Shown here: positions 15,570 to 63,816 of the stretch, one piece after another | Layout of the letters: each line of letters starts with the position of its first letter | Numbering within the stretch: the first letter of the stretch is position 1 | From: Verrucomicrobiia bacterium | GTDB taxonomy: Bacteria; Verrucomicrobiota; Verrucomicrobiia; Opitutales; Cerasicoccaceae | NCBI GenBank assembly: GCA_030425485.1 | Contig: JAUIAM010000004.1 | Span: 1-64,000, forward strand | Length of the DNA: 64,000 bases | Direction of reading: 5' to 3' | The notes under the pieces: model-generated | The model's database searches: none | What the model saw: the letters and a program-made list of their open reading frames with translations, nothing else | Told to the model about the DNA's origin: nothing | Position numbers and translations under genes: made by a program

Positions 15570-15734
15570 CTAGGGTGTGTTTTCAAATTCATCAAGGTCG
15601 GTAGAAAAGGGTCTTTTCGCGTCTTTTTCCGTTTTCTCAGTTCATGAATCTGGATTCACACCACTTCGAAAGCCGAAAAAATCCTCAAAATTACCTCTTT
15701 TTCCCTCGTTTCTTAATTTGAAGACACACCCTAG
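15570..15734. mobile_element. 165-bp MITE-like element, copy A
   Basis: Bounded by CTAG on both sides, with terminal inverted repeats ggtgtgt.ttcaaatt / aatttgaagacacacc. The interior is non-coding. Copy B at 53697-53861 is the same sequence in inverse orientation, with differences visible only in one terminal repeat. Size, terminal repeats and lack of a gene fit a non-autonomous element mobilised in trans by an IS with similar ends (CTAG/TA target; IS5- or IS630-like by inference). Confidence 0.78.
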
Positions 15735-44838: not shown

Positions 44839-45441
44839 TTAGAAATTGATGTCAGGGAGTTTTTCAATTGCTCGTCACTTGGCGTCATCTTCGATATGGG
44901 TGTAGTGGGTGCTAATCGCGGCAGAGTCATGGCCGATGATGTCCATTGCAACCGCTTCAGATACCCCGGCGTTCTTCAGCAATGAAGTCGCAGTATGGCG
45001 CAGACAATGAAAGCTGAGCCCACCCCTCTCCCTGCGCGTCGAATGCCCCTGCCTGTACTTACCTTGGAGCGCTTCTCCGCCAAGCCCGCTTCCACCATGA
45101 AACTGGCTGCTCAAGCTACTGGTGCGATCTTGCTCGGATACCGTTTTATCAGCCACCGGAAAAACGGGCAAGCTCGGCTCGATCGGTGCAGGCAAGGTCT
45201 TCAGGTGTTTATACAGCGGAGCCGTAATCGGGATACTGACCGTTCGCCGGGTTTTGATGGTGACGATTGATAGCACCTTCTCATCCATGTCGACCGCCGA
45301 CCACTTCAGCGTGGCAATATCCCGGAGGCGTTGCCCCGTAGTGTGCCGTAATCTCAGACGCGATGCGGTAGCATCGAAAGTACAGGCTATGCCTGCTGCG
45401 GGGGTTGGGGGCGCATAGCCCTCAAAATCGATAGCATGCAT
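44839..45441 (-). pseudogene. Tyrosine-recombinase (integrase) remnant
   Basis: The catalytic half of a phage-type integrase. It keeps GQRLRDIATLKW (first Arg), HCLRHTATSLLKNAGV (His-x-x-Arg), IIGHDS (His) and STHYTHIED (Tyr). The N-terminal half is absent. Past the TGA at 44877-44875 the frame continues as RAIEKLPDINF to a TAA at 44841-44839, a normal integrase tail, so the TGA is a nonsense mutation that removes 11 residues. A related fragment lies at 47855-47996, across the GH2 gene. Confidence 0.8.
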
Positions 45442-48080: not shown

Positions 48081-48132
48081 GTTACCATAACCCATCTTTG
48101 GGTTTGTCCTGTGAGTCCCATGCTGCTTTAAA
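48081..48132 (+). promoter_or_regulatory. Conserved activator-type site and promoter, site 1 (fucosidase 1)
   Basis: GTTACCATAAC (48081-48091), 11 nt, then TTTG; -35 TTGTCC (48104-48109), 17-nt spacer, -10 TTTAAA (48127-48132). The leader to the fucosidase ATG is long, about 175 nt. One of five sites with the same geometry. Confidence 0.65.
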
Positions 48133-48313
48133 GCTTAAACTGTATACACTTAACGACCATCTTGGGATACTTAAATATTACCCAATTCCCCCTCCGAAAT
48201 CGGCCAGCGAAATATCCGCCCTGCTCTAAAGCGATACCTCTCCAACCTCCTTTCACTGGCCAAATTGCAGTGCTAGTTGCGCCAGCGGTCCAACCTCACT
48301 CCCCCTTGAACTC

Positions 48314-50089
48314 ATGATATCACGTGCGCTAAAACCCTGCCGCTTCGCCATAAAATGGGCGCAGCAATTACCCCTTGCCCTTCTTTTCTTAACGGCCACT
48401 TTTCCCCTGGCCGCCAGCATACCCACCTTTCCCGGAGAAACCGAAGCCGAGCGTGATGTCCGCATGCAGTGGTGGCGCGACGCCAAGTACGGCATGTTTA
48501 TCCACTGGGGTGCGTCCGCAGAACTACGCGGCAACTGGAAAGGCACACCCAAAGGCGATGGCTACAACATCATGCGCCGGGTTAAGATGCCTCTATCTGA
48601 ATACGCAGAGGCGCTCAGCCACTTCAACCCGGTAGAGTACGACCCTGAAGCATGGGTAATACTGGCCAAGGAAGCAGGCATGAAATACATCGTCTTCATC
48701 GCCAAGCACCACGACGGGTTTGCGCTTTGGGATACACAGGCTTCCGAATTCGACATCATCGACCATACGGAGTACAACCGCGATATTCTCAAGGAGTTGG
48801 CCGAGGCCTGTGCCAAGTATGACATGAAACTCGGCATCTATTATTCGCACTCGCGAGACTGGTATCACCCGGGCGGTGCCATCGCGGGCAGCGACACGCG
48901 CTGGGACGAGGCGCAGGAAGGCGACTTTGATGAATACCTGAAAACAGTAGCCGAGCCGCAAGTGCGCGAACTACTCACTAACTACGGCCCCATCGCCGTA
49001 ATGTGGTGGGACATGCCAGAGAACATCACCACAGAGCAAGCCGAGCGCCTCAACGCCTTGATGTCCCTGCAGCCAGGTATCATCTCCAATGACAGACTGA
49101 TCAGCGGAAGCGGTGACTTTGATACACCCGAACGCTACATCCCTGCATTTCGTAATCCGCCCGATCGCGATATCGAAGCGTGCATGACCATCGGCAAGTA
49201 TTGGGTATACAGCGAAACTGATCGCGAATGGGAATCCCAGAAGCAGCTTCTGCGTAACCTGCTCGACTCCGTGGGCCGCGGCGGCAACCTCCTGCTAAAT
49301 GTCACGCCGGACGAAAAGGGTAATGTCATACCCGAAAACACCGAGCCGCTACTGGCGATTGGCGAGTGGCTCGACCAGTATGGTGAGTCTGTCTATGGCA
49401 CCACGCAGGGACCGTTTCGCCATTGGCCCGCGGGCAGCGCAACGGTTAAGGGAAATACGCTCTACCTGCATGTGTACGACTGGCCGAGCCAAGGTCCATT
49501 GCTCATACCGATAAGCAATACGCCCTTGAAGGTATCGTCACTGGGACCATCCGGACAGGCAGCGCTATCCTTTGAGAGCACACCGAATGGCTTGCTGATC
49601 GATGTACCACAAAAGCCACTTGACCCCCTGGTATCCGTGCTGGCAGTGGATTTAAAGGAACCTGCGGTAGCAATCCGCCAAGGGTACGAGCCCAACGCAA
49701 AGGGCGTCTACGATTTAACGCCGGATATTGGCGAGCGGCGCGGCGCATGGATTCAGATCGATGACAACGCAATCGTTCGCTGGAACAACAGCACCTACCG
49801 CATGAACTGGCCGATGTATATCGACACGCCGGGCACTTACCGGGTGGAAGCGGTTTACAGCTGTAGCCCCGAGCTTGCAGGCAGCGCCTTTCAGGTTAAG
49901 ATAGGTGACCGCACGCTCAAGGCCGACTTCCAATCCTCAGCAACACCCAAAGCGTTTACTATAGGGACGCTCAAGGTCGATCATACGGGTACGTTTGAGG
50001 TCGAGCTTAGCCTGCCAAAATTTAGGACTGCCGAGGAGGCCAGCTTCCACGCAGTGCGACTTGTACCTGAATTCATAAGTGAAACGTAA
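48314..50089 (+). CDS. GH29 alpha-L-fucosidase (secreted)
   Basis: 591 aa. Signal peptide (about 1-34), then the GH29 catalytic domain: WWRDAKYGMFIHWGASA, YIVFIAKHHDGFALWDT, YYSHSRDWYHPGG and the nucleophile Asp233 in VMWWDMP. After about residue 400 there are beta-rich C-terminal domains, the last (about 465-585) resembling a carbohydrate-binding or jelly-roll module. It hydrolyses terminal alpha-L-fucose from glycans or fucoidan oligosaccharides. Closely related to the gene at 60221 in the same locus. Followed by a strong hairpin; preceded by regulatory site 1. Confidence 0.92.
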   Translation: MISRALKPCRFAIKWAQQLPLALLFLTATFPLAASIPTFPGETEAERDVRMQWWRDAKYGMFIHWGASAELRGNWKGTPKGDGYNIMRRVKMPLSEYAEALSHFNPVEYDPEAWVILAKEAGMKYIVFIAKHHDGFALWDTQASEFDIIDHTEYNRDILKELAEACAKYDMKLGIYYSHSRDWYHPGGAIAGSDTRWDEAQEGDFDEYLKTVAEPQVRELLTNYGPIAVMWWDMPENITTEQAERLNALMSLQPGIISNDRLISGSGDFDTPERYIPAFRNPPDRDIEACMTIGKYWVYSETDREWESQKQLLRNLLDSVGRGGNLLLNVTPDEKGNVIPENTEPLLAIGEWLDQYGESVYGTTQGPFRHWPAGSATVKGNTLYLHVYDWPSQGPLLIPISNTPLKVSSLGPSGQAALSFESTPNGLLIDVPQKPLDPLVSVLAVDLKEPAVAIRQGYEPNAKGVYDLTPDIGERRGAWIQIDDNAIVRWNNSTYRMNWPMYIDTPGTYRVEAVYSCSPELAGSAFQVKIGDRTLKADFQSSATPKAFTIGTLKVDHTGTFEVELSLPKFRTAEEASFHAVRLVPEFISET

Positions 50090-50100
50090 GCGTGGGCATA

Positions 50101-50146
50101 CAGGGAAGCTCTGCATAGCCAGAGCTTCCCTGGCATCCGCTTTTAG
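50101..50146 (+). terminator. Terminator after fucosidase 1
   Basis: A perfect 13-bp stem cagggaagctctg/cagagcttccctg with a 6-nt loop (50101-50132), then gcatccgctttt. It lies 11 nt after the stop and between convergent genes, so it may serve both strands. Confidence 0.7.
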
Positions 50147-50273
50147 ATTTATCTGCCCATGCAATGAGTACAGCCGTGGAGCAGAAAGACTGCGCAAGGA
50201 CAGCCCCAACCAGGAAACAGGGTTTCCTCGGAGCGCACTCTGCAAAAAACCGCTTTATCCCCTACAGGGTGTA

Positions 50274-51293
50274 TCAGTCGCTAACGCGATAGCGCACGAT
50301 TTCACCAAGAGCATGGTTGGCGGAGAGTATCGTATCGGATTCGATGACAACGATGTTGGCCGGGCCGACTCCGGTATCTAGAATTTCGGCCAGCATGTCC
50401 AATGACCCTTGCCGCTCTGGGCGCATGAGGACGAGCTCCTTCTCCCCTCCCCGGTTACCAACGACCAACGCCGGGCGATCGTTCAGCATGCCCGCCCAAA
50501 CCACGTGCCCAAAGTTGATCGCGAGACGGCGCACCTCACGCCATACGCCCTTTTTGAAACGCTTATAGAAAACCAGACCATCCCCGTGAAACGGCTCAAC
50601 CGTGACAAGCTCCGGCTCGCCATCTCCATCAATGTCGAAAACCGCCATGTCACTAACATCGTGGTTGAGCAATCGCTCGCAGGCCCATGCATCGGTATCG
50701 CCGTGAGGTGCCGTCAGCATAAAAAGACCGTCAATTCCCGACACAAATAGCCGCGGTTTCCCATCGACCGAGGCCATAGCCATACCATGGTTACGACGGA
50801 TGCCCTGGCAGATAACCTTGGGACGCAAAGGTGTCCCCCACTCGGGTGAAAGCGGGGCCGCGATAACCGAGCCGGGCATGGACCAGTCCTCCTGCGCCGT
50901 CTTACCGCCAGCCATAGTTGCCCCAATGACCCAACCCTCGAAAAGCGCTAAACGGTGTGCAAATGGAAGTTCGAGAACATTAGTCGATTGCCAGGCTTGC
51001 GCCCCGCTATCGGTAGGGCGAACATCTACCACCCTGGCCTGCTCAAAATGATAGATAGGCCAAGCTTGTTGAATGGCCAGAAAGCGTCCACTTCCATCGT
51101 GTACCGGCACCAGACTCATGGTCCCGCCGGGACGGTCCCACACTTCCACGGGCTCGGAATCATCGGAGCTGAAGGCTAAGCAGGGACCATAAAGTTCTGT
51201 CGCCGCGAGAACGACCAGCCGCCCACCGACACGCTGGGCACTCACGGCATAGACCATCGGCAGGTGGCCGACTATGGTTTTCTCAACCGGCAT
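50274..51293 (-). CDS. FG-GAP/VCBS-like propeller protein
   Basis: 339 aa without an obvious signal peptide. One clear calcium-binding repeat, VFDIDGDGEPELVTVEP (about 219-235), is set among weaker propeller strands (RLVVLAATELYGPCLA, PRLFVSGIDGLFMLT, RPALVVGNRGGEKELVLM). Probably a seven-bladed propeller that binds sugar or protein partners. Third gene of the sialidase operon: it overlaps the isomerase gene by 11 nt, so translational coupling is likely. Function not assigned. Confidence 0.6.
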   Translation of the reverse strand: MPVEKTIVGHLPMVYAVSAQRVGGRLVVLAATELYGPCLAFSSDDSEPVEVWDRPGGTMSLVPVHDGSGRFLAIQQAWPIYHFEQARVVDVRPTDSGAQAWQSTNVLELPFAHRLALFEGWVIGATMAGGKTAQEDWSMPGSVIAAPLSPEWGTPLRPKVICQGIRRNHGMAMASVDGKPRLFVSGIDGLFMLTAPHGDTDAWACERLLNHDVSDMAVFDIDGDGEPELVTVEPFHGDGLVFYKRFKKGVWREVRRLAINFGHVVWAGMLNDRPALVVGNRGGEKELVLMRPERQGSLDMLAEILDTGVGPANIVVIESDTILSANHALGEIVRYRVSD

Positions 51294-52236
51294 CCGCCCA
51301 CTCCTCCTGCATCACGCGTGCGCTGGCAGCGATCAGCATACTCTGCGCATGGCGCACGAATTCCCTACCCGGCGCCCTCGGCCAGTTGCGTTCTTCGATG
51401 GCAATGCTAACTGGGCTGGAATCGGTCCCCTTGAGTTTTTTCACGCGCTTAAGAATGGCCGTTAGCTCGTCCGCACCGACAACGCTACCCGGCTCCCCCA
51501 CACACATATGTGTATCGCCAAACCACGGATGAAGGCGGGTAAGCACGGGGCTGGAGATGTGGAGCTGCGAAAGAACAGGCCAGCAAAGTTCCAATGAATC
51601 CAGCAGCTTCTCGCCATTGAGCAGCGCGTGCCCACTGTCCCAGCAAAGGGAAAAGCGGGGCGAGATAGCACGCACTCGACGCGCGAGTGCTACGGCATCC
51701 TGCGAACACCCAACGAGCATGCACTTGTGGGCGTTGCGGTCTAAAGGCTCCAGCAAAATGTCGAGTCTGCGCGCCTGCTCGGCCTCTGCGCACAATGCGA
51801 TCAGGCTGGTTTCGAGAGCCCGAATCGCCTCTGGGCGGCGAGTCGGTTCCACGTCCGGACCACTGCGGACACAGACAGCGCTAGCGCCGCAGGCCAAGGC
51901 ATCGCCAATCAGCCGTCGCATGGACTCAACGGCGGCCCTCCGCACGGATTCGTCCAGCGACGACAGGCTGAGCCCAGGTGAATCGATGTCAGGCCTGGCC
52001 CAGAGATACAGTTCGCAGCCGCTATCTTCAAACAGCTCACGCATGCATCGGTGCTGTTGCGAGGAAAGTTCTTCCGCCATCCACTCGATGCGCGAAAAAA
52101 ACTGCCCCTCCAGGATGGACTCACAGGCTTCCCGCACGACCTCCCATCGCTCGTTCCACGGATAGAATGCCTCGGAAAGAAGCAGACTTGGCACAAACCA
52201 TAAGGGCAGGTTTCCCTCATCAACAGGCGGCGTCAT
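51283..52236 (-). CDS. Sugar isomerase/epimerase-like TIM-barrel protein
   Basis: 317 aa of the AP-endonuclease-2/xylose-isomerase-like superfamily. Typical segments are ACGASAVCVRSGPDV, DILLEPLDRNAHKCMLVG (metal Glu), FSLCWDSGHALLNG (Asp, His) and QLHISSP. Members isomerise or epimerise sugars or act on inositols; the substrate is not clear. Second gene of an operon after a sialidase-family gene. ATG at 52236 is chosen over TTG at 52260. Confidence 0.72.
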   Translation of the reverse strand: MTPPVDEGNLPLWFVPSLLLSEAFYPWNERWEVVREACESILEGQFFSRIEWMAEELSSQQHRCMRELFEDSGCELYLWARPDIDSPGLSLSSLDESVRRAAVESMRRLIGDALACGASAVCVRSGPDVEPTRRPEAIRALETSLIALCAEAEQARRLDILLEPLDRNAHKCMLVGCSQDAVALARRVRAISPRFSLCWDSGHALLNGEKLLDSLELCWPVLSQLHISSPVLTRLHPWFGDTHMCVGEPGSVVGADELTAILKRVKKLKGTDSSPVSIAIEERNWPRAPGREFVRHAQSMLIAASARVMQEEWADAG

Positions 52237-52263
52237 CGGAGCATGTCCCGCACATCCCAATGC

Positions 52264-53550
52264 CTATTCAGTGGCAGGAGCCCGATTGACGAGGTGGGGT
52301 GAGCCGGTACCCCGATGCACAAACTTGCCCGCTTTAATATCTTCTTCGGTAAAGCTGATGCAGTATATCTCGCGCTCATCCTTGCGTCGGTGGTCGTAGG
52401 CAATGACGACCATACCGTCGTCGAGCTGATCACCGTCAGGATAGGAAATCTGGGTGCGATCATCCAGCAGCAAGCCACCTTCCCAGGTCTTGCCATCGTC
52501 ATACGAAAGGTATGCCGTGAGATGTGAACGGTCAGCAGAAGGACGCTTGCGCGCGACCCGATCCTTAATCTCCTTTTGTGATAGCCCGGTTTCGTCGGGT
52601 GTCTGGTGACGCACGAGCAGGAGCTCGCCCGAGTCCAGCCGTCGGATGTAGAAGCGCGAACGAATGTGCGGGATGCCTGCCAACTCCGGAGTGGTCCACG
52701 TCTTTCCACCGTCCGTAGAAGTCGTCTCGAGGATTCCCTTTAGTCCGCGGATAAGGAGCCAGAGGCTTCCGTCGTTGCGCTCGACAATCATGTGCTCATC
52801 GTAGCGAACGTCCTGAGTCGGTATCTGTGCAATCTGCTGGAAGCTCTTGCCATTATCGCTAGATTCTACGACGAGCGTGCCCGCCTTGCTGGGATCCCAA
52901 TGGTTGTACTTGTCAGGCACGTGACGCTCCGGGGCCCCTTCCTTGTCTTTGGGCGCATGGCTCCACATTGCCACTGGCAGCAGCCAACGTCCGTCATTCA
53001 GCACGGTCGGCTTGTTCATCATGATGCCGTCAATCAGATAGCGAGGCTCTGACCAAGTCGGCATCTCCGAGTCGGGATTGGAACAGCTGATCGCCCAGAC
53101 GCCGCCCCGACCATCCCACCAGCCGTATGCCTGTGCATAGAAAACCCATAAGGCCCCATCCGGAGCCGTCCAGATGACCGGATCGAATGTGCGGACGTGG
53201 GGATTCTCGTGGTCGATAACCAACTCGATGTCGGACCATGTTTCACCGCGGTCATCGCTGTGTGCCAGCATGACGTAATTAAGCGGACCTTCGTCGTGGC
53301 CACCGCCGTACCATAGCGCCCACAGCCGCCCGCTGGGCGTTGCCGCCAAGCCCGGGATACCCTGAAAATCACGGGGCGCAGAGAGATCAGATTCCGACTT
53401 TGGCTTGAATAGCTTGGCCGGAGTCAGGGCCGGATCATCGGCTTGCGCAGTAAGTGGCAAGGCCATTGTCAGGCAGCAAGCACCAGCGTAAAGAAATCGC
53501 CGAAGGAGTTTTGCTGCTGGGTAGAAAGAAACGCGAGAGATGCACTTCAT
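52264..53550 (-). CDS. Sialidase-family (BNR/Asp-box) secreted protein 1
   Basis: 428 aa. Signal peptide (about 14-36), then a six-bladed propeller with Asp boxes SDDRGETW, SSDNGKSF, STDGGKTW and SYDDGKTW. Conserved LAATPSGRLWALWYGG and the Arg/Tyr residues of the sialidase fold are present (RFYIRRLDSGELLL; QISYPDGDQLDDGMVVIAYD). Such proteins may cleave sialic acids or other acidic or deoxy sugars; specificity is not provable here. First gene of a three-gene operon. Site 5 of the shared regulatory motif lies 86 bp upstream. Confidence 0.8.
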   Translation of the reverse strand: MKCISRVSFYPAAKLLRRFLYAGACCLTMALPLTAQADDPALTPAKLFKPKSESDLSAPRDFQGIPGLAATPSGRLWALWYGGGHDEGPLNYVMLAHSDDRGETWSDIELVIDHENPHVRTFDPVIWTAPDGALWVFYAQAYGWWDGRGGVWAISCSNPDSEMPTWSEPRYLIDGIMMNKPTVLNDGRWLLPVAMWSHAPKDKEGAPERHVPDKYNHWDPSKAGTLVVESSDNGKSFQQIAQIPTQDVRYDEHMIVERNDGSLWLLIRGLKGILETTSTDGGKTWTTPELAGIPHIRSRFYIRRLDSGELLLVRHQTPDETGLSQKEIKDRVARKRPSADRSHLTAYLSYDDGKTWEGGLLLDDRTQISYPDGDQLDDGMVVIAYDHRRKDEREIYCISFTEEDIKAGKFVHRGTGSPHLVNRAPATE

Positions 53551-53594
53551 GATGCTGAGCAAAATGGGGGTTAACGGATTGAGGGGGATGCGAT

Positions 53595-53646
53595 CATCGT
53601 TCACGATCTCGTCACGCGAGCAAGTGCTTCGATGTGTTATTCTAAC
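53595..53646 (-). promoter_or_regulatory. Conserved activator-type site, site 5 (sialidase 1 operon)
   Basis: On the minus strand GTTAGAATAAC (53646-53636), 11 nt, then CTTG (53624-53621), giving -35 TTGCTC; the -10 at 17 nt is poor (ACGATG). Same geometry as the other four sites. Confidence 0.6.
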
Positions 53647-53696
53647 ATCGAGAACATCCACGCCCTTGTTTTACTTAGGCCGTAGAGAAACTCACG

Positions 53697-53861
53697 CTAG
53701 GGTGTGTCTTCAAATTAAGAAACGAGGGAAAAAGAGGTAATTTTGAGGATTTTTTCGGCTTTCGAAGTGGTGTGAATCCAGATTCATGAACTGAGAAAAC
53801 GGAAAAAGACGCGAAAAGACCCTTTTCTACCGACCTTGATGAATTTGAAGACACCGCCTAG
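53697..53861. mobile_element. 165-bp MITE-like element, copy B
   Basis: Reverse complement of copy A (15570-15734), same length, bounded by CTAG, with differences confined to the right-hand terminal repeat as far as can be read. Near identity over 38 kb implies recent movement. It sits between two genes of the sugar locus. Confidence 0.8.
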
Positions 53862-53947
53862 TCAGGGAAGGGATTAAGAAGCAGACAGAGTCGTAAAAAC
53901 CAGATCGGCCCAAGTTGCACCGGCCTATCGTGCGGGGAGTGTCCCGC

Positions 53948-54721
53948 TTACGGATTCAGCGGTGTCATCGGTCCCCAGATATCCTTCACCCCCGGAAGAG
54001 GCTCCTGGCAGGCGTCAGTTTTCTTCCACCAACGGTGATTGATCGCGTCGGTTTCGCTCATTTTGTTATCTGCCTGGGGCGCATCACCCACGTATTCGAG
54101 ATAGAGAAACTCCACAAGTTTACCATCGAGTTCGGCAAGGTATATCGACAGGTTGCGGTTGTTACTGCGAGCTACCTGATCGACAACCCCAGGCCAAACG
54201 GTCTGATGCAGCGTCCGGTAATCCTCCTCTTTATCCGGTCGCACCGTCGTCACAAGCATGACCTGACTGTCTGCCGGACCAGGGACATTTTTACCACGGA
54301 TATAAGTGATCCATTCCATCTGAAGCCAGTGCGTCTCCAGCCGTTCTGCCCGCGGGTGGGAGCGAGTCAATTCCGTCAAGGCTGCCGTTTCCTCACAGGC
54401 AGACTCGAACGCACTGGCCGCCTGGAGATAGTCCCGCTTTCCATCATAGAGAAAATGCAGCACAACCCATTCATGCTCTCCGATCTTGTACGTAAACGCG
54501 CGGACATTCTCAATGCCTGAAGCGGCAAGTGACCTGCGGGCACTGTCGGTACCGAGAGCTTCGATAGCCGTGCTCAAGTCTCCCGTTTTCCCAGGACCAA
54601 TTTCTGCGATAAGGCCAACGACTGTGGTGCGGTCAGATAACAAATAGTTCTCGTAAGGCGAGAATGCCGAAGCCATGAGCGAGGTGATGAGGGCGATCGT
54701 TGTAACAAGCAAACATTTCAT
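53948..54721 (-). CDS. Exported RhaM-type sugar mutarotase-like protein
   Basis: 257 aa with a signal peptide (about 1-20). The C-terminal half (about 135-245) matches the L-rhamnose mutarotase family: VRPDKEEDYRTLHQTVWPGV, NLSIYLAELDGKLVEFLYLEYVG and HRWWK with the final PLPGV...PM. The N-terminal half (about 35-130) looks like a degenerate second copy of the same ferredoxin-like fold, making a fused dimer. In human and other systems a RhaM-fold protein is an L-fucose mutarotase, which fits the fucosidases beside it. No copy of the shared promoter motif precedes it. Confidence 0.7.
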   Translation of the reverse strand: MKCLLVTTIALITSLMASAFSPYENYLLSDRTTVVGLIAEIGPGKTGDLSTAIEALGTDSARRSLAASGIENVRAFTYKIGEHEWVVLHFLYDGKRDYLQAASAFESACEETAALTELTRSHPRAERLETHWLQMEWITYIRGKNVPGPADSQVMLVTTVRPDKEEDYRTLHQTVWPGVVDQVARSNNRNLSIYLAELDGKLVEFLYLEYVGDAPQADNKMSETDAINHRWWKKTDACQEPLPGVKDIWGPMTPLNP

Positions 54722-55017
54722 TTTTCAATACGGTTGAGGTTGTAGATGAGATGTCGAGCAGGGGTAGGTGCCGCATAAATAGCGTGCAATCTCGTCTCAA
54801 GCTGGGTTTAATCAAAGTGTCCTGGCAACGAAGTAAAAGCCCGACACGTGTTGCTTCGTTACGGTCCGCTTTTCAAGTAGTCAAGAGCTTTCATCACGAT
54901 GCAGCCCGAAGACACTCCCACAAACCAAGCTCATAGCAGGCGTTTATTTCCAGCGGGATCACACGGGCAATGTGCCCGCAACCCCTGCCCCCCGATCACC
55001 CCCTCGAACGGTCTTTT
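54722..55017. other. Intergenic region between divergent genes
   Basis: About 300 bp between the mutarotase start and regulatory site 2. It should hold the mutarotase promoter, but no shared motif or confident -35/-10 pair can be seen. Confidence 0.45.
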
Positions 55018-55069
55018 GGTAACATAACACAGCAAGTGATTTGCTAGATTTTAAGGATGCCAATAGACC
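55018..55069 (+). promoter_or_regulatory. Conserved activator-type site and promoter, site 2 (propeller-symporter operon)
   Basis: GGTAACATAAC (55018-55028), 11 nt, TTTG (55040-55043); -35 TTGCTA (55041-55046), 17-nt spacer, -10 TAGACC (55064-55069). The -10 ends 9 nt before ATG 55079, which favours ATG 55115 as the true start. Confidence 0.65.
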
Positions 55070-55114
55070 AACGACAAGATGAGTAGTTCATCTATCCCCT
55101 GCCCCCGATTCCCC

Positions 55115-57175
55115 ATGATATATCGTTTCCCACGCTTACTTCTCTCATTACTCACAGCGACACTTCCACTGGCGATACACGCTGCGGAAAACTCAGAAGA
55201 CCTTGTACGCCTAAAGTACAACGCAGATCACGCTATCGCCGACCTCGGCGTCGGCCTCTGGGGCTGGCCCTTCCCCGTGGACCGTAACGAAGACGGAAAA
55301 ACTGACCTCATCGTTATCTCCGGTTCGTCGCCCTACCGAGGAACCTATTACTTTGAAAACACCGGACAGCGTGACGACAACGGTGCAGAAATCTTCAGAC
55401 GTGCCGTCCGCCTCGGGGAAGGCCGCAACGACACCACGCCCTCCTACCTCCCAGATGGTACCATGCGTGTGCTTGGTCCCGGCTGGGAATATCCCGACTT
55501 TTTGCAGACGGGCACAGATAAGCGCGTTCGCATGCCGAACATAGACCCCAAGGCCATTCACCAAACAGCCAGTCGTGTCCGCGGCCAGCAGTACAGCCTT
55601 GTGGATTTCGACGGTGACGGACTGCTTGACCTCGTTGTCGGTCTTGGCGACTGGACCGACTACGGCTGGGACAACGCCTTCGACAAAAATGGGCGTTGGG
55701 TCAACGGCCCATTACACGGCTACATCTACATCCTTAAAAATACAGGTACGAACGAAGATCCCGTTTACCAAAAACCCATTCGCCTCCAAGCCGATGGACG
55801 TCCCATCGATGTCTACGGGATGCCCTCCCCGGTCTTCGGTGACTTCCGCAACACCGGCAAGCTCGACCTCATCTGCGGCGAATTCGTAGACGGGCTCACC
55901 TTCTTTGAAAACATTGGTACCCGCACCGAGCCGCGTTACGCACCCGGTCGGCGACTTACTTACGGTAGCGAGCCCATCACCCTCCCCTTGCAGATGATTG
56001 TCGTCACCGCCTATGACTGGAACAACAACGGTCTGCTTGACCTCGTCGTCGCTCAAGAAGACGGTCGCGTCGCCCTGCTCGAAAACACCGGACGCGTGCT
56101 CAGTACCGAGCAAAGAAACTCACCCAGTTCGCCCGCCTTCACCATCAACCTCCCGGAGTTCGCCCCACCCAGGTTCTTCCGCCAGGAAGCCGACGAGGTG
56201 AAGTTCGGTGTCCTGACTTCACCCTCCATTATCGACTGGGACAGTGACGGCCAGGCCGACATTGTCACGGGGAACGCCGCCGGAGAAGTTGCTTACATTA
56301 AAAACCTCGGCGGCACCCCCACCCAATGGGCCGAGCCCGAAGTACTCACAGCCGGTGATCCCCCCATGCCCATCCGTTTTATGGCGGGATACAACGGATC
56401 AATACAGGGTCCCGCCGAATCCAAATGGGGCTACACCAACCTTTCCACGGGAGACTTCGATGGAGACGGACTCCCCGATATCATCGTCAGCGACATCACT
56501 GGTCGCGTGTACTGGATAAAGAATCTCGGCGCTAACACCAAGGGCACGCCCCCCGCTCTCGCCCAAGCCGAGAAAATCCGTGTCTGGTGGGACGGCGCGC
56601 CCGCCCAGAAAACCGCCTGGAACTGGTGGAATCCCCAGGATGACGAGCTCGTCGTCCAATGGCGCTGCACACCTGCCCTCGTCACCCTACCCGGTCAATC
56701 GGACCCGGGCCTCATAACCGTCGACCCCGAAGGCTACCTCGCCCTCTATACTCTGGAAACCCGTGATGGCGAAACCCGAGTCCTGCCCGGCAAACGTATC
56801 TTCCACATGCGCGGCCCATCCTCCTTCGACGGTCACCACCGCCCAACGGGTGAGACAGACGGCTTGCTGCGGATGAATACGGCGGAAGCTGGCCGTAGTG
56901 GACGACGCACCTTTACCTTCACCGACTGGGATGGCGACGGTCGCATCGACCTTCTCGTCAACAGCCGCAACCTCAATTTTCTCAAGAATATTTCCGACCA
57001 ACCGGGCGAGTTCATCTTCGAAGACCAGGGCCCCATTGCCGAGCGCAAGCTGGGAGGACACAGCACTTCGCCCGCCTTCGGCGATATCAATGGCGATGGC
57101 AAGGAAACCCTGCTTATTGGCGCGGAAGACGGCTTTTTCTACCAGTTTCGCACACCCGAAGAGCCTGCCCCTTAA
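55115..57175 (+). CDS. FG-GAP/VCBS repeat propeller protein, secreted
   Basis: 686 aa. Signal peptide (about 1-23, ending IHAAE), then at least eight acidic calcium-binding repeats: DRNEDGKTDLIV, DFDGDGLLDLVVG, DFRNTGKLDLICG, DWNNNGLLDLVV, DWDSDGQADIVTG, DFDGDGLPDIIVS, DWDGDGRIDLLVN and DINGDGKETLLIG. This is a large propeller, often found in polysaccharide utilisation loci of Verrucomicrobiota where it may bind glycan. It is 27 nt before the symporter gene, in one operon. The start at 55115 is preferred on promoter geometry; ATG 55079 is in frame. Confidence 0.82.
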   Translation: MIYRFPRLLLSLLTATLPLAIHAAENSEDLVRLKYNADHAIADLGVGLWGWPFPVDRNEDGKTDLIVISGSSPYRGTYYFENTGQRDDNGAEIFRRAVRLGEGRNDTTPSYLPDGTMRVLGPGWEYPDFLQTGTDKRVRMPNIDPKAIHQTASRVRGQQYSLVDFDGDGLLDLVVGLGDWTDYGWDNAFDKNGRWVNGPLHGYIYILKNTGTNEDPVYQKPIRLQADGRPIDVYGMPSPVFGDFRNTGKLDLICGEFVDGLTFFENIGTRTEPRYAPGRRLTYGSEPITLPLQMIVVTAYDWNNNGLLDLVVAQEDGRVALLENTGRVLSTEQRNSPSSPAFTINLPEFAPPRFFRQEADEVKFGVLTSPSIIDWDSDGQADIVTGNAAGEVAYIKNLGGTPTQWAEPEVLTAGDPPMPIRFMAGYNGSIQGPAESKWGYTNLSTGDFDGDGLPDIIVSDITGRVYWIKNLGANTKGTPPALAQAEKIRVWWDGAPAQKTAWNWWNPQDDELVVQWRCTPALVTLPGQSDPGLITVDPEGYLALYTLETRDGETRVLPGKRIFHMRGPSSFDGHHRPTGETDGLLRMNTAEAGRSGRRTFTFTDWDGDGRIDLLVNSRNLNFLKNISDQPGEFIFEDQGPIAERKLGGHSTSPAFGDINGDGKETLLIGAEDGFFYQFRTPEEPAP

Positions 57176-57202
57176 CAAGACTGCACCCTTAGCCCCACCC
57201 AC

Positions 57203-58711
57203 ATGCAACCCCCTTCACACTTCACCGTGCTCGATGGCATCGTGCTCGCAGTCTACTTCGCGATCACGATGGGCATCGGCTTCTTCTTCTGGCGTAAAAG
57301 CAAATCCGTAGACGGGTTTACTGCGGCCAATCGCAGCTTGCCCGGGTGGCTTACCGGCCTTTCCATCCTCGGCACATACGTCAGCAGCATCAGCTTCCTG
57401 GCAGTTCCCGGACGCGCCCTATCGGGAAACTGGAACGCATTTGTATTCAGTATTTCGATACCTTTCGCGGCGTGGATTGCGGTGCGATGGTTCATGCCGT
57501 TCTATCGTAGCGGTGGACACATTTCGGCCTATGAACATCTGGAGGAGCGCTTCGGCCCCTGGGCACGCATTTACACCAGTGCCTGCTACCTGCTTACGCA
57601 GCTTGCCCGGATCGGCACCGTTATGTATCTGATGGCCCTGCCGATGAATGTGCTGCTGGGCTGGAGCATTCACTGGATCATCCTTGTCACCGGAGTCGCC
57701 GTCACCCTCTACACCTTTGTCGGCGGCATCGTAGCAGTTATTTGGAACGATGCCATACAGACTGTGGTTCTCATCGTTGGCGCCCTGGTCTGTCTGGTTA
57801 TAATGATCACCGCCCTCCCCGGTGGATTCGGCCAGTTTATGGAACTCGGCATCACACACGACAAGTTCAGCCTCGGTTCATATGGACTTGATCTAGCCGC
57901 CCCCACCTTCTGGGTAGTTCTGGCCTACGGTGTCGTAATCAATCTGCAAAACTTCGGCATCGATCAAAATTACATCCAGCGATACCATGCGGCGTCCTCG
58001 GATCGTGAGGCGGCCAAGAGCATATGGCTTGGCGCGCTCCTCTATGTCCCCGTCTCTGCGATTTTCTTCATTATCGGCACCGCCCTCTTTTCCTACTACA
58101 CGGCGGGGGCAGCAGTCCTGCCAGAGGCGTATCAGGGCGAGGCTCAAGCGGACCGTGTCTTTCCTTATTTCATCGTCACCGCCCTGCCCGATGGGGTTAC
58201 CGGTTTACTCATCGCAGCCATTTTTGCCGCCGCCATGAGTACCGTCTCAACCAGCCTAAACTCTTCGGCGACGATTATTTTAAGCGACTACTACAAGCGC
58301 TATTTCCGGAAAAACTCTGACGAGCGAAGCGACATGCGGGCACTCTACATCACCACGATTATCGTCGGCATTCTCGGCACTGGTATCGCGCTTGCCCTGA
58401 CCAAAGTCTCCAGCGCCCTCGACGCCTGGTGGCTACTCGCAGGCATCTTTGGCGGTGGCACTCTGGGGCTCTTCTTACTCGGCTTTCTCTCTCGCCGCGC
58501 TACCAACCTGACCGCCATTATCGGCGTTACCTGCGGCGTCGTCCTCATCATCTGGATGACGCTCTCGCCCAAAGCCGGAGACTGGTTCAGCGACTCCCTG
58601 CGCAGCCCCTTCCACAGCTTCCTCATTATTGTCTTCGGCACCACCACGATCCTGATCGTTGGCTTGGTTGCAACGAGCATCCTCAAGCCGGGAAAAGCAC
58701 ACACCTCATGA
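57203..58711 (+). CDS. Sodium:solute symporter (SSS family)
   Basis: 502 aa membrane transporter with about 13 hydrophobic helices. SSS signatures: DGFTAANRSLPGWLTGLSILGTYVSSISF, VGGIVAVIWNDAIQT and AAAMSTVSTSLNSSATI (in parts). The SGLT-like pattern suggests uptake of a sugar with Na+, consistent with a marine or saline habitat and with the glycosidases around it. It is the only clear importer in the locus, so it may carry the fucose or other monosaccharide released outside. Confidence 0.9.
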   Translation: MQPPSHFTVLDGIVLAVYFAITMGIGFFFWRKSKSVDGFTAANRSLPGWLTGLSILGTYVSSISFLAVPGRALSGNWNAFVFSISIPFAAWIAVRWFMPFYRSGGHISAYEHLEERFGPWARIYTSACYLLTQLARIGTVMYLMALPMNVLLGWSIHWIILVTGVAVTLYTFVGGIVAVIWNDAIQTVVLIVGALVCLVIMITALPGGFGQFMELGITHDKFSLGSYGLDLAAPTFWVVLAYGVVINLQNFGIDQNYIQRYHAASSDREAAKSIWLGALLYVPVSAIFFIIGTALFSYYTAGAAVLPEAYQGEAQADRVFPYFIVTALPDGVTGLLIAAIFAAAMSTVSTSLNSSATIILSDYYKRYFRKNSDERSDMRALYITTIIVGILGTGIALALTKVSSALDAWWLLAGIFGGGTLGLFLLGFLSRRATNLTAIIGVTCGVVLIIWMTLSPKAGDWFSDSLRSPFHSFLIIVFGTTTILIVGLVATSILKPGKAHTS

Positions 58712-58771
58712 GACTTGGCACTCCGCCTCATTCTAAGGAAGCACGCTTACACCCACCCAATTCTTCCGCAT

Positions 58772-58823
58772 GTTAGCATAACCTGCATTAGGTTTTGTTC
58801 TACTGGATCATTCGTCCTATCTT
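58772..58823 (+). promoter_or_regulatory. Conserved activator-type site and promoter, site 3 (sialidase 2 operon)
   Basis: GTTAGCATAAC (58772-58782), 11 nt, TTTG (58794-58797); -35 TTGTTC (58795-58800), 17-nt spacer, -10 TATCTT (58818-58823). The leader to the ATG is about 20 nt. Very similar to site 1 beyond the core. Confidence 0.65.
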
Positions 58824-58849
58824 AAGTACTCCCAAGTTAAAGCCCCCCT

Positions 58850-60169
58850 ATGACCATATCTCTTGCCCACCCCTCAGCCATCCTTCTGGCAGTCTGCTCG
58901 CTTCTCATCAGCAGCGTGACCAGCGCCAACCCTGTTCGTCCGCTTGCTCAAGACCATGTTACGGTTTATGAGTCGCCCAATCCCAAAAACGTCCCACTTT
59001 ATAACCCAAGTATTATCAGCCTTGATTCAGGCCGCCTCGTCGCCGCCTATTTGGTCAGCGGCAAGCGCGACCCCAAGCTACACTCCCGGACCGACATCGT
59101 GACCTCTGACGATGGCGGGCTAACTTGGCAAAAGCGCGCGGAAAGCAAGATCGGTCAATCTCGTCTCTTTCAGGTTGGTCATGACCTCTACCTGATCGGC
59201 ACCTCCATGGGCCTGAACATACAACGTTCTACAGACGACGGACTCACCTGGTCTAAGCCCACCAAGATAGCCACGGGTCGCTGGCATCAATCGGCGACCA
59301 ACTACTGGCTCGCCAATGGCAATGTTTACCTCGCCCTGGAAAAACGCGTCGGAGAAGAGATCAACGGCTGGTATGTCGGCGAACTCTCCCCCATTCTCCT
59401 GCGCGCCAAAGTCACGGACGATCTCACCAAGCCTGAGTCCTGGTCTTTCTCACCTGACTACACCTTTAAGGACATCATCCCCGGCTACACAGAGAACTAC
59501 CCCATCATCGAATTTGTGGGTATCCCTTTTTACGCTCAGGACTTTCCAGAGCGCAATGTTTTCGAGAAGGGTTATAATATGCCTCCGATGGGCTGGCTGG
59601 AAGCGAACGTCGCTCAGATCACTGACCCCGACCACTACTGGTACGATCCCAAAGGCAAAACATTCCACCTGCTGATGCGCGCCCATACAGGGGGAACCGG
59701 CTATGCCGCAATGGCCAAGGTTGTAGAAAACGAAGACGGCATCATGACCACCTCTCTGGAAACTGTCCCCTCAGGGCAAAGCGTCCTCTACCTTCCCATG
59801 CCCGGCGGACAGATGCGCTTCCACATTCTTTACGACGAGGAAACCAAGCTGTACTGGCTGCTCTCCTCACAGGCTACCGACTCTATGACCCGCGCAGAGC
59901 GACTCCCCCCGGAGCGCTATAACCTCCCCAACAATGAGCGGCACCGCTTAGTCCTGTATTTTTCCAAAAATCTCGTCGATTGGTGCTTTGCAGGCGTCGT
60001 CGCTATCGGCAACTCGCCAAAGGAGGCACGCCACTACGCCAGTATGGCAATAGACGGTGAGGATATTGTCATACTCTCCCGCTCCGGGGACGAACGCGCA
60101 CGCTCAGCCCACGACGGAAACCTCATCACATTCCACCGCGTGAAGGACTTCCGCGACTTAGTTTACTAA
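58850..60169 (+). CDS. Sialidase-family (BNR/Asp-box) secreted protein 2
   Basis: 439 aa. Signal peptide (about 1-25, ending TSAN), Asp boxes SDDGGLTWQ and STDDGLTWS, and repeated propeller strands (YNPSIISLDSGRLVAAYLVSG, LFQVGHDLYLIGTS, FHLLMRAHTGGTG). Only distantly like the sialidase-family protein at 52264, with fewer Asp boxes, so substrate specificity probably differs. It is 51 nt upstream of fucosidase 2 and under site 3. Confidence 0.78.
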   Translation: MTISLAHPSAILLAVCSLLISSVTSANPVRPLAQDHVTVYESPNPKNVPLYNPSIISLDSGRLVAAYLVSGKRDPKLHSRTDIVTSDDGGLTWQKRAESKIGQSRLFQVGHDLYLIGTSMGLNIQRSTDDGLTWSKPTKIATGRWHQSATNYWLANGNVYLALEKRVGEEINGWYVGELSPILLRAKVTDDLTKPESWSFSPDYTFKDIIPGYTENYPIIEFVGIPFYAQDFPERNVFEKGYNMPPMGWLEANVAQITDPDHYWYDPKGKTFHLLMRAHTGGTGYAAMAKVVENEDGIMTTSLETVPSGQSVLYLPMPGGQMRFHILYDEETKLYWLLSSQATDSMTRAERLPPERYNLPNNERHRLVLYFSKNLVDWCFAGVVAIGNSPKEARHYASMAIDGEDIVILSRSGDERARSAHDGNLITFHRVKDFRDLVY

Positions 60170-60220
60170 GGCCGATGCACCTCAGCAACAATACGACCTC
60201 AATCCCTTATTTAATATAAA

Positions 60221-61990
60221 ATGATAATCAAACGACTGAAATCTGCTGCCATGCCCCTACGCCTACCACACATCCTGACCGCTCTCCTTGTCGCTACCTT
60301 CACTATACCCTCATATGCACAACAAACCGTGCCCGGTGAAACCGATGCAGAGCGTGACATACGCATGCAGTGGTGGCGCGACGCCAAGTATGGCATGTTT
60401 ATCCACTGGGGAGCATCGACATACCTCGGCGGCGAGTGGAACGGAAAAATTTACGGGGATAGCCACGGACTCATTCGTGATGCCAAGATCCCACCCGAAG
60501 AGTATGCCGCCGCGCTTCAGCCATTCAACCCAATCGAGTTTGACGCAGAGCAGTGGGTGCGTGACGCCCAGCGCTTCGGCTTCAAGTACATCGTTTTCAT
60601 TGCCAAGCACCATGACGGCTTTGCCATGTGGGATTCGCAGGCGTCCGACTTCAACATTATTGATGCTACCGAGTTTGATCGCGACATCCTGGCTGAACTA
60701 TCCGCCGCCTGCCAGAAGTATGGCATGAAATTCGGTGTCTACTATTCACATGCGCGAGACTGGTATCACCCAGGTGGCGCAATGGGACTGCGAGACATGC
60801 CCAACTGGCATCCCTCCCAGGAAGGCGAATTCGCGGATTACATCCACGATGTCGCTGTGCCACAGGTACGCGAGTTAATGACCAACTATGGTCCCATTGC
60901 CGAGCTCTGGTGGGACACGCCCGACAAGATGACACCGGAGCTGGCCGCTGAGTTCACCGAACTCCTAAAGCTACAGCCCGGCATCGTGACGAACAGCCGA
61001 CTGCTCAACCGCGACGGCACCGGTGGCGACTTTGATACGCCCGAGCGCTACATTCCAGCCAACCAGGAGCATGGACTCGACTTTGAAGTCTGCATGACAA
61101 TCGGTCGTACCTGGATGTGGAGCAAGGAAGACGAACGCGAAAAGTCAGCTCAGGACATCCTCGACAACCTACTCAATATTGCCAGCAAGGGAGGCAACTA
61201 CCTCCTTAACATCGGGCCCACCCCACAGGGTACCTTCGCACACTGGCAGGTCGAGCGACTCGAATACGTCGGCGACTGGCTGGCAGACTACGGTGAGGCC
61301 ATCTATGGCACCAGCAAAGGACCCTTCCGCTATTGGGAAAACGGCTACGCCACCACAAAAGGCAATTCGCTCTACCTGCTCGTGACCGATTGGCCGACAG
61401 ACGGCAAGCTGTACGTCCCCATTGCCAATGTCCCTACCTCAGCGCGCGCGTTGGGGACACCATCACAACCCTTTACCTTTAAATCCACCGACAAGGGATT
61501 ATTCATCGACGTTCCACGGCAGCCGCTGGATGAGCGCGCGTCAGTCATCGTGCTCGACATGCCCCAGCCAGCCATACCGATTCGCCAGGGTCAACTAGCC
61601 GACGAGCGCGGTGCTTACGAACTCACTGCGGTGGACGGCGAACGCTACGGACTACGCCTGCGGCTAATCGGTGATGTGATCCCAAGCTGGCCGACCGGTC
61701 TGTACAGTGTGACCTGGCCGATCTATATCGAGCAACCCGGTACATACCGCGTACTCGCTACTTATGCCTGCGATCCCGATAAGGCAGGCGGCACCCTCGA
61801 TTTGACATTCAATCAGCAGAAGCTAACCGCAATCACCCAGCCAACGGCTTCAACTACGGATTTCCAGACGGTCGATTTGGGCACCGTTACCTTCGACCAC
61901 GAGCAATCTGTTGAAGTGGTGCTCAAGCAGCTAAAAAGAAAAGACCCCAAAGCAGTCAGCTTCAAGTCCCTGACCATCATACCTGATTAA
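60221..61990 (+). CDS. GH29 alpha-L-fucosidase 2 (secreted)
   Basis: 589 aa, closely similar along its whole length to the gene at 48314. Signal peptide (about 1-33, ending SYAQ), WWRDAKYGMFIHWGAS, YIVFIAKHHDGFAMWDS, YYSHARDWYHPGGA and nucleophile Asp232 in AELWWDTPD. The same beta-rich C-terminal modules follow. Loop differences (LLNRDGTGGDFDTPERY here, LISGSGDFDTPERY there) suggest separate linkage or aglycone preferences. Second gene after sialidase 2. Confidence 0.92.
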   Translation: MIIKRLKSAAMPLRLPHILTALLVATFTIPSYAQQTVPGETDAERDIRMQWWRDAKYGMFIHWGASTYLGGEWNGKIYGDSHGLIRDAKIPPEEYAAALQPFNPIEFDAEQWVRDAQRFGFKYIVFIAKHHDGFAMWDSQASDFNIIDATEFDRDILAELSAACQKYGMKFGVYYSHARDWYHPGGAMGLRDMPNWHPSQEGEFADYIHDVAVPQVRELMTNYGPIAELWWDTPDKMTPELAAEFTELLKLQPGIVTNSRLLNRDGTGGDFDTPERYIPANQEHGLDFEVCMTIGRTWMWSKEDEREKSAQDILDNLLNIASKGGNYLLNIGPTPQGTFAHWQVERLEYVGDWLADYGEAIYGTSKGPFRYWENGYATTKGNSLYLLVTDWPTDGKLYVPIANVPTSARALGTPSQPFTFKSTDKGLFIDVPRQPLDERASVIVLDMPQPAIPIRQGQLADERGAYELTAVDGERYGLRLRLIGDVIPSWPTGLYSVTWPIYIEQPGTYRVLATYACDPDKAGGTLDLTFNQQKLTAITQPTASTTDFQTVDLGTVTFDHEQSVEVVLKQLKRKDPKAVSFKSLTIIPD

Positions 61991-62008
61991 ATGGCAGACT
62001 GAAGCCTT

Positions 62009-62061
62009 GTTAACATAACACAAGACGACATTTGACCCTCACACCCATACTAACTTACACT
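62009..62061 (+). promoter_or_regulatory. Conserved activator-type site and promoter, site 4 (PEP-CTERM/pseudopilin pair)
   Basis: GTTAACATAAC (62009-62019), 11 nt, TTTG (62031-62034); -35 TTGACC (62032-62037), 18-nt spacer, -10 TACACT (62056-62061). The best -35 of the five. Confidence 0.65.
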
Positions 62062-62116: not shown

Positions 62117-63001
62117 ATGAAGATCACACGCCCATTCACTAAGCTCCTCACCCTAGCCGCTATCCTGCCTCTTTGCGCCCAGGCCAATACGGTCATACTG
62201 GATCAAGACTTTAATAACGGCAGTCGCTCGATTCAGGACCTGCCCAGCTCTGCGCAGTGGTTCCAGTCGTTCAACAACCTCGACATGGTCGAAACCTCAC
62301 CTGGAGAGTACTCGCTCGAGAACGCTCCGAGCAGTGCTACGATTCGTCATGGAGTTGCTTATTACGCTCCCACAAGCACACCCATTTCGATAGCTGCTGG
62401 CCAAACCATTACAGCTTCACTCAGCATTACCCCGAGCTCAAAAACCCCCGATAATAGTGACAGGATATTGCGTATCGGCCTGCTTCATTCCGGTGCAAAC
62501 CGACTGACCGAGGACGGCAACCCAAACATTGCCATGAGTGGGTACGGCTTTTTTGTTAACCCCGAAACCCTGAGAGTCAATACTTACGGACGCACGGAAG
62601 ACGCCGGCCCTGTCTTCTCCTCCTTGACCAACGGCAATGGCTGGACTGGCGGTACCACTGGTGGACAAATATCCGACATCACCCCGGAGGACGCCTTCGC
62701 CATGGTGCAAAACACCGCTTATGACATCACGCTCAGCATCGAGCATCTCAGCAACGGCGACCTGAACATCTCCTACACGACCAGCAATGGCGTAGACTCG
62801 GTGACCACCAGCTTCGTGGAGAGCAACTATCTGGTTACGGATTTCGATACGATTGCCTTTGCCTGGGGGAATCATTTCGGCGACGGCCTTATCGACAATG
62901 TCGCAATCACGGTTGTCCCCGAACCTTCCCAGTTTGCTCTGCTCGCTGGTTTCGCCGGATTCATCGCACTCGGTATCAAGCGCCAAAGAAAAAACGCCTG
63001 A
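62117..63001 (+). CDS. PEP-CTERM sorting domain protein
   Basis: 294 aa. Signal peptide (about 1-23, ending AQAN), a lectin/jelly-roll-like body (VILDQDFNNGSRSIQDLP, RILRIGLLHSGANR, DTIAFAWGNHFGDGLIDNVAIT) and the sorting signal VVPEPSQFALLAGFAGFIAL followed by KRQRKNA. The body resembles proteins of glycan loci whose fold is concanavalin-like. Shares the site-4 promoter with the pseudopilin 59 nt downstream. Confidence 0.82.
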   Translation: MKITRPFTKLLTLAAILPLCAQANTVILDQDFNNGSRSIQDLPSSAQWFQSFNNLDMVETSPGEYSLENAPSSATIRHGVAYYAPTSTPISIAAGQTITASLSITPSSKTPDNSDRILRIGLLHSGANRLTEDGNPNIAMSGYGFFVNPETLRVNTYGRTEDAGPVFSSLTNGNGWTGGTTGGQISDITPEDAFAMVQNTAYDITLSIEHLSNGDLNISYTTSNGVDSVTTSFVESNYLVTDFDTIAFAWGNHFGDGLIDNVAITVVPEPSQFALLAGFAGFIALGIKRQRKNA

Positions 63002-63060
63002 AAACTGAGCGCTCGGTCTTTAGGCGTTTCGTTCCCCATTACACCTAAGAACCCCAACCT

Positions 63061-63816
63061 ATGCCCTTAACCTTCACCCGGTTCCGGTTCCAGTCCGAAC
63101 GCGGATTCACGTTGATTGAGCTGTTAGCCGTTGTAGCAGTCATCGGTATTCTTGTTGCCGTCCTCATTCCGGTGATCAGCTCCATCCGTGAATCCGCGTA
63201 CCAATCACAGTGTGCAAGTAACCTGCGCCAGATCATGAGCGCATTTCAGCTCTATGCATCGGAAAACAACGGCTACCTGCCTGCCGCCTCGCGCGCTACA
63301 GATCCCACTGTCCCTGCGAACCAGTCTCCTAACTCTCGATGGTCACGTGACCTCGAGGCTTACCTACCGCAGTCCCGCCGCGCCAATTCAGTCAACCAGA
63401 TCTGGGACAATGAGGTTTTCGTCTGCCCCGCCGCCGTCACCCCCTCGGGAAAATCTGACCCGGGAGACATCAAAATGGCCTATAACGCCAGCCAGGCACT
63501 CTACGGCGAGAATGGAGACAGTGGCTTTGGCACCTCACGCTTTGAAAGGCGAAAACTCATGACCATCGAGGACCCCGCCAAAACCCCGCTGGTTTATGAC
63601 GCACCACTGCTCGCAAATTTCGACGTCCAAAGCAACTACTACGCCACCTGGCCACAAGTCCGCTCTGACTTCACACGCAGCATAGAAGACATGAGATACC
63701 TTTCCTTCCGCCACAAGGATAACATGAATGTCCTCATGGCTGACGGTGCCGTCCACACTGTTGGACCTGAATACCTCCAAACCCTCGACGTGCGCCGATG
63801 GAGGGGGCTGGAGTAA
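63061..63816 (+). CDS. Stand-alone pseudopilin with H-X9-DG motif
   Basis: 251 aa. Prepilin signal ERGFTLIELLAVVAVIGILV (Phe16, Glu20), then CASNLRQIMSAFQLYASENNG (in part), a four-residue cysteine pattern (CASN, CPAAV) and a C-terminal H-X9-DG motif, RHKDNMNVLMADGAVH (about 218-233). These T2SS-type pseudopilins are numerous in Verrucomicrobiota and related phyla and may serve dedicated secretion of neighbouring enzymes. Paired with a PEP-CTERM gene, like the pair at 38443-41036. Confidence 0.88.
   Translation: MPLTFTRFRFQSERGFTLIELLAVVAVIGILVAVLIPVISSIRESAYQSQCASNLRQIMSAFQLYASENNGYLPAASRATDPTVPANQSPNSRWSRDLEAYLPQSRRANSVNQIWDNEVFVCPAAVTPSGKSDPGDIKMAYNASQALYGENGDSGFGTSRFERRKLMTIEDPAKTPLVYDAPLLANFDVQSNYYATWPQVRSDFTRSIEDMRYLSFRHKDNMNVLMADGAVHTVGPEYLQTLDVRRWRGLE

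Follow-up and report, generated by a model that had tools for sequence, protein, structure and literature searches.

Eight palindromic sites at a fixed distance from -35-like boxes form a local regulon with a probable LacI-family regulator in a Verrucomicrobiia bacterium

Among transcription factors of the LacI family, CcpA and Cra are known activators. In the sections of two papers drawn on here, CcpA activates from cre sites upstream of the -35 box (PMC3463425), and the activating cre centres of Lactococcus lie 21 or 31 bp upstream of it (PMC2329647). Here we describe palindromic sites in a Verrucomicrobiia bacterium, found in a window of 64,000 nucleotides (positions 1-64000 of the 226,120-base contig C56) and in the part of C56 that follows; all sites are numbered by C56 positions, within and beyond the window alike. 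Each site has an inverted GTTA-N3-TAAC core followed at a constant distance by a -35-like TTG, and the sites are spread over a fucosidase/sialidase-like locus. We propose, with a probability of about 0.6, that they all serve as operators for a single local regulator of the LacI/GalR family (82661-83698, + strand), which most likely activates the marked promoters. The closest described arrangement is that of CcpA on cre at ackA, pta and ilvB of Bacillus and in Lactococcus, where a LacI-family protein also uses a palindrome upstream of the -35 and where helix face and distance matter (parts of PMC3463425 and PMC2329647). CcpA differs in being global and mostly repressing, on even cre sites with a central CG at many positions, whereas the present system is local, with an odd, oriented operator at one distance.

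A further likeness is to GntR and IdnR (GntH) of E. coli, which are LacI-family proteins with a sugar-acid regulon. They have an MTVSR-type recognition helix and TGTTAC-type operators, and the title of Tsunedomi 2003a reportedly calls GntH an activator. IdnR is termed a repressor in the consulted part of the survey of Ravcheev 2014 (PMC4052901). The local LacI regulons in that part of the survey resemble the present one in having a single regulator, catabolic operons nearby and a site beside the regulator's own gene, with autoregulation in 72% of the LacI-family factors surveyed. They differ in their operators: odd palindromes account for 4% of the surveyed motifs, and 1251 of 1303 are even and mostly have CG at the centre; the operator here is odd. 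The word Verrucomicrobia is absent from the survey's main text. Verrucomicrobiota are described as specialised in consuming sulfated polysaccharides of methyl pentoses in a paper that does not contain the word LacI (PMC8857213), and in the literature searched we found no paper that names a binding motif or a LacI-type regulon for Verrucomicrobiota in its title or abstract opening.

The source assembly has 3,813,870 bases in 62 contigs and is 98.2% complete. The motif 11-mer is defined as GTTANNATAAC, and the full (strict) pattern as this 11-mer followed by N11 and YTTG. A first-pass annotation of the window had reported five copies of the 11-mer, each with a (T/C)TTG beginning exactly 11 nt later. 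All five sites lie where it placed them, and the spacing holds in 5/5; the copies themselves are exact at four sites, the one at 55018 (GGTAACATAAC) being a near-copy with one mismatch. When up to two mismatches are allowed, the window contains 6 matches, one of which is 58772 read on the minus strand (two mismatches), versus a mean of 0.87 in shuffled windows; 0/100 shuffles reach 6.

A search of the whole 3.81 Mb assembly, as the annotation had suggested, returns the full pattern at five places, all on C56 (48081+, 53646-, 58772+, 62009+ and 88381-) and within 40.3 kb (48081-88381), versus one match for the reversed control; an equal frequency across the genome is thus not what is seen. By itself, the 11-mer shows no enrichment over the genome: its 12 matches, at 11 places, compare with 18 for the reversed control. 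Six of the 11 exact places are within 48-88 kb of C56. The 5 elsewhere have no TTG at the set distance (0/5), and four of them, on other contigs, fall in stop-to-stop open frames of 262-1003 codons; the exception is C56:155667. The number of palindromes is not special by itself; their position and the neighbouring TTG are. A relaxed scan of C56 1-120000 adds 75398- and 82652-, giving 8 sites in total. A weight-matrix scan of the same region gives exactly 8 places at or above 12 bits (22.9-32.1) and 0 in the reversed sequence; since the matrix was built from 29 sites with these 8 in the training set, the informative part is the clean score gap and not the matches themselves.

No regulator had been obvious in the window, and a LacI-type gene just outside it was among the candidates to be sought. 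One is present 18.7 kb past the window end, at 82661-83698 on the + strand. The encoded protein of 345 aa has an N-terminal LacI helix-turn-helix (PF00356, 68.6 bits, cut-off 27) and a periplasmic-binding-protein-like effector domain (PF13377, 33.4 bits, cut-off 26.5). The 82652 site stands 8 bp before its start codon, and on the other side is a divergent aldolase of the KDPG/KHG type (PF01081, 187.5 bits; TIGR01182, 207.4, cut-off 156), followed by a PfkB kinase. This protein is the most likely regulator of the sites. Its AlphaFold model (mean predicted local distance difference test score 79.4, predicted TM-score 0.64) is that of an ordinary LacI-family fold, the closest structures being 3kjx, CcpA, RbsR, LacI and PurR; the best match, 3kjx, has an E-value of 2.5e-16 and a TM-score of ~0.5, with a root-mean-square deviation of 14.8 over the whole chain. 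The equivalog scores are far under the cut-offs for CcpA (TIGR01481, 30.9/442) as well as for GntR and IdnR (NF011563, 25.1/433 bits; NF047913, 30.5/500 bits), which sets the protein apart from the E. coli pair; it is therefore classed only as a LacI-family member.

Orthologues were sought in 372 genomes of the order at a cut-off of E<=1e-75; relatives' genomes carry G numbers (G000 is the present genome) and single loci L numbers. The search scored at most 5 first-look candidates per genome and could miss orthologues in LacI-rich genomes; a second search, in which as many as 20 candidates per genome were scored in 104 relatives, found no additional orthologue there. In all, 15 orthologous genes are present in 14/372 genomes, the 14 others being 41-61% identical to the 82661 protein. 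All 15 retain S[AVS]M[TS]VSR as the recognition helix. The canonical LacI-family hinge has a short linker; here the hinge is P[DN]Pxxx[RQ]LM in 13/15, whose linker is longer than that of the remaining two, and the hinge region is modelled, at low confidence, as one helix from 54 to 68. That the longer-linker hinge is linked to the odd operator is a guess.

The strict pattern occurs in 27/372 genomes, in 11/14 with an orthologue versus 16/358 without (Fisher p ~1e-11). Hand-tallied matches number 21 in the 14 orthologue genomes versus 2 for the reversed control; the other 358 genomes have 18 versus 50, and the pattern is therefore at or below background where the orthologue is lacking. In 8/11 genomes a strict match is on the regulator's own contig. 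The 130 bp upstream of the gene contain a palindrome with at most one mismatch in 13/15 orthologues (9 exact), versus 5/60 LacI paralogues (1 exact), and a palindrome with the TTG at the right spacing in 9/15 versus 0/60. The 60 paralogues comprise 20 each from G000, G001 and G005, out of 228 LacI helix-turn-helices in five genomes. These counts are good evidence for assigning the operator to this regulator. It is noted that the LacI family is expanded in these genomes, with 33, 54, 58, 28 and 55 LacI helix-turn-helices (E<=1e-6) in G000, G001, G002, G003 and G005, respectively. Three LacI paralogues of G005 (L203, L206 and L208) have TCGAACGGTTCGA or CTTTACAATAAAG palindromes 17-18 bp before a TTG, a hint of similar geometry in individual cases.

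The spacing recurs in the relatives. In seven regions around orthologues, the TAAC of 17/20 exact GTTAN3TAAC palindromes is followed by a TTG at exactly 12 nt; the exceptions are G005 16100, G005 33403 and G041 94800. Over all orthologue loci the proportion is 23/32, versus 2.95% at random positions in the same DNA. These 32 palindromes include 6 of the present genome and the loci L090 and L108, which were fetched through the pattern itself; when these are left out, 15/24 have the spaced TTG (null 2.95%). The binomial probability for 15/24, 1e-17, is an overstatement, as the sites are partly related by descent. The spaced sites also have a direction. The promoter-proximal A is present in 15/15 of these unselected sites versus 7/15 for the mirror T on the far side, and the operator is therefore oriented; the 8 asymmetric sites among the 15 all point the same way. 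In the full set the values are 23/23 for the A, which is partly built in by the pattern there, and 7/23 for the mirror T. The operator is an odd palindrome with a centre that is mostly N-C-A and lacks the central CG; the even operator with central CG that is typical of the LacI family, if not obligatory, is not what is found here.

Downstream of the TTG, a C at position +28 is present in 19/29 sites (TTGNC, cf. TTGAC). The annotation had assigned plausible -10 boxes to four of its five sites. Over the 29 sites, TATAAT-like hexamers (>=4/6) occur 14/116 times at spacers of 16-19 versus 7/406 at the other tested spacers (p ~1e-5), or 8/84 versus 5/294 (p ~0.002) without the present genome's sites, with the spacer range picked after the table was seen. 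Taken singly, each box is weak.

Each of the 8 sites precedes a transcription unit, as had been stated for the first five, with the start taken for the next gene 51-282 nt downstream. The first (GTTACCATAAC, N11, TTTG; 48081..48106, +) is 5' of a GH29 alpha-L-fucosidase (48314-50089). The second (GTTAGAATAAC, N11, CTTG; 53621..53646, -) is 5' of an operon that runs from a likely start near 53550 down to 50274 on the - strand and consists of a BNR sialidase-like propeller gene, an AP_endonuc_2-type isomerase and a third gene. The near-copy GGTAACATAAC, which begins with GGTA, is followed by N11 and TTTG (55018..55043, +) and precedes a unit of an FG-GAP protein (55079-57175) and an SSF symporter (57203-58711). 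The fourth (GTTAGCATAAC, N11, TTTG; 58772..58797, +) precedes a BNR propeller (58850-60169) with a second GH29 fucosidase (60221-61990) downstream in the same unit, and the fifth (GTTAACATAAC, N11, TTTG; 62009..62034, +) precedes a PEP-CTERM-like protein (62117-63001), whose tail was recognised by eye with no Pfam match, and a pseudopilin (63061-63816). Beyond the window, the site at 75373-75398 (-) has GTTG in place of YTTG (one mismatch) and is 5' of a pseudopilin and a sulfatase; that at 82627-82652 (-) has two mismatches and is 5' of the KDPG-aldolase and sugar kinase; and that at 88356-88381 (-) has the exact full pattern and is 5' of a 1457-aa NHL/Ig/BNR protein. The annotation had linked glycosidases, propellers, a transporter and the PEP-CTERM/pseudopilin pair into one regulon. 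The link is supported by the genome-wide counts and by recurrence in relatives, as are the inverted core and constant spacing on which it was based, and the regulon is larger than described, with these three additional targets. The eight sites form a real, well-supported local regulon with a probable regulator, ordinary in kind and unusual in operator form and strict geometry.

Some other features of the locus should be mentioned. Among the glycan genes, pseudopilins and PEP-CTERM-like proteins (the latter recognised by eye) occur repeatedly (62117-63816, 74455-75273, 92973-93890 and 96372-97154), some of them under the operator described here; the pseudopilin calls rest on N_methyl/DUF1559 Pfam matches for 63061 and 74455 and on inspection by eye for 96372. 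A 151-152-bp element, similar to a miniature inverted-repeat transposable element, with GTGTCTTCAAATT-type inverted ends is present in 3 copies, at 15577-15727 (inverted relative to the other two), 53704-53854 and 63963-64114 (extending past the window end), and one copy precedes the 53646 operator by 57 bp. A phage-integrase-family fragment of 188 aa (44875-45441, PF00589) lies beside a GH2-type gene on the left border of the locus.

The upstream regions of orthologous genes were compared in G005, where the fucosidase, propeller, PEP-CTERM and pseudopilin genes are 66-89% identical to those of G000 in a different gene order. Two orthologous promoters have an equally spaced site (53646 corresponding to 44554, and 62009 to 51578); those of the 55079 and 58850 relatives have none (at most one mismatch plus TTG). 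While most locus proteins share this 66-89% identity, the LacI protein (C15:48689-49735 in G005, compared with 82661-83698) is at 49%, the aldolase relative at 58% and an amidohydrolase at 42%, which reflects faster change or replacement. The aldolase relative is 28 kb from the regulator in G005. Aldolase and kinase adjoin the regulator in 6/14 orthologue genomes (G000, G002, G003, G041, G099 and G120), and a history of a core with later addition, suggested by this pair, is only a possibility.

From the sites, their spacing and orientation, and their co-occurrence and co-location with the regulator, we infer the following mechanism. A dimer is predicted to bind the oriented odd palindrome TGTTANCATAACA (operator DNA GTTANCATAAC) on a fixed helix face. 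The centre of this palindrome lies 18 bp before the first T of the -35-like TTG, at ~-53 from the inferred start. The bound dimer could touch RNA polymerase, at sigma region 4 or the C-terminal domain of the alpha subunit, and this contact would offset the weakness of a TTTGNC/-10 promoter. Through the operator next to its own start, the regulator could also tune its own synthesis. The predicted targets are the fucosidase/propeller/sulfatase locus, the SSF transporter, the surface-type PEP-CTERM-like and pseudopilin proteins, and the intracellular KDPG-aldolase/sugar-kinase pair. Because this pair adjoins the regulator in 6/14 genomes, the first effector to try would be a 2-keto-3-deoxy sugar acid or its phosphate; this is a weak inference.

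Activation by the 82661 protein has to be weighed against repression by the same protein on the same operator, in which the bound protein would block the alpha-subunit/UP-element contact or another activator and leave when sugar is present. Repression is the usual mode of the family, most LacI-family proteins being repressors, and both co-location and a site at the regulator start are compatible with either mode. Upstream repression is also known for a LacI-family protein, CcpA at the lev operon (section of PMC3463425). However, the promoters look weak unaided, and a blocking repressor requires neither exact spacing nor orientation, whereas 15/24 unselected palindromes are exactly spaced with the A on the promoter side in 15/15. 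Activation is favoured because polymerase contact needs one distance and one orientation, and we regard repression as rather unlikely. It is far less probable that another regulator binds the sites, namely GntR/FCD (70853-71629), the GntR and solute-binding hybrid (43022-44518) or the LacI paralogue at C12:8923. GntR/FCD is kept with the locus in G005 (75%), and the C12 paralogue has a nearly identical recognition helix, SHMTVSRVVRN. Yet no GntR/FCD relative is present among the genes listed around the sites of G003, G002, G041, G099 and G089 (within 14 kb or to the contig end), an exact GTTAN3TAAC is near 1/60 LacI paralogues, and the C12 paralogue (G000:C12:8923-9060; also L152) has a related even palindrome upstream, TGTTCACATTAACA, with the same outer half-site letters at another spacing. 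Co-occurrence led us to set aside all three candidates, and with them a further GntR hybrid at 97309. Chance likeness of the upstream sequences would fit the lack of genome-wide enrichment of the 11-mer alone; it is opposed by the clustered positions, the constant spacing, the reappearance of the sites in relatives and the co-occurrence of the pattern with a single regulator, and we consider it negligible.

Several observations weigh against activation by the 82661 protein from these sites. The spaced TTG is missing in 9/24 unselected palindromes, the -10 boxes are individually weak with the sites partly related by descent, and the 18-bp centre misses the nearer of the two CcpA activating positions in Lactococcus by 3 bp. 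When palindrome-TTG distance was crudely tested in the 60 paralogue upstream regions, there was no general peak at 17-19. The strict match is on a different contig from the regulator gene in G089, G120 and G296, and G280, G291 and G318 have no strict match despite the orthologue; in all three, exact palindromes stand a short way in front of the regulator gene, with ATTG at the right spacing in G318 and without the TTG in G280 and G291. With at most one mismatch and a TTG, G005 has no site before its aldolase relative, nor before the 55079 and 58850 orthologues. Aldolase and kinase are not seen in the regulator flanks (<=1.5 kb) of G356 (two genes), G318, G291, G279, G296 and G280; they are likewise not seen in the 7.8 kb G089 contig.

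What is unusual in the system is that the operator is odd and oriented, lacks a central CpG and keeps to one distance. We offer tentatively, as possible but doubtful, the broader view that a LacI subgroup of Verrucomicrobiota is a dedicated phased activator of surface glycan digestion, with an odd oriented palindrome lacking the central CpG, a longer non-canonical hinge and a single distance for docking on RNA polymerase. The finding supplies a candidate regulator, a candidate operator and a candidate target list, all open to direct testing. The operator, fixed gap and TTG together may serve as a sign, readable from the genome, that predicts the genes of one sugar response, including PEP-CTERM-like and pseudopilin surface genes. 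If the broader view is true, a family known mainly for repression would act here as a strictly phased activator.

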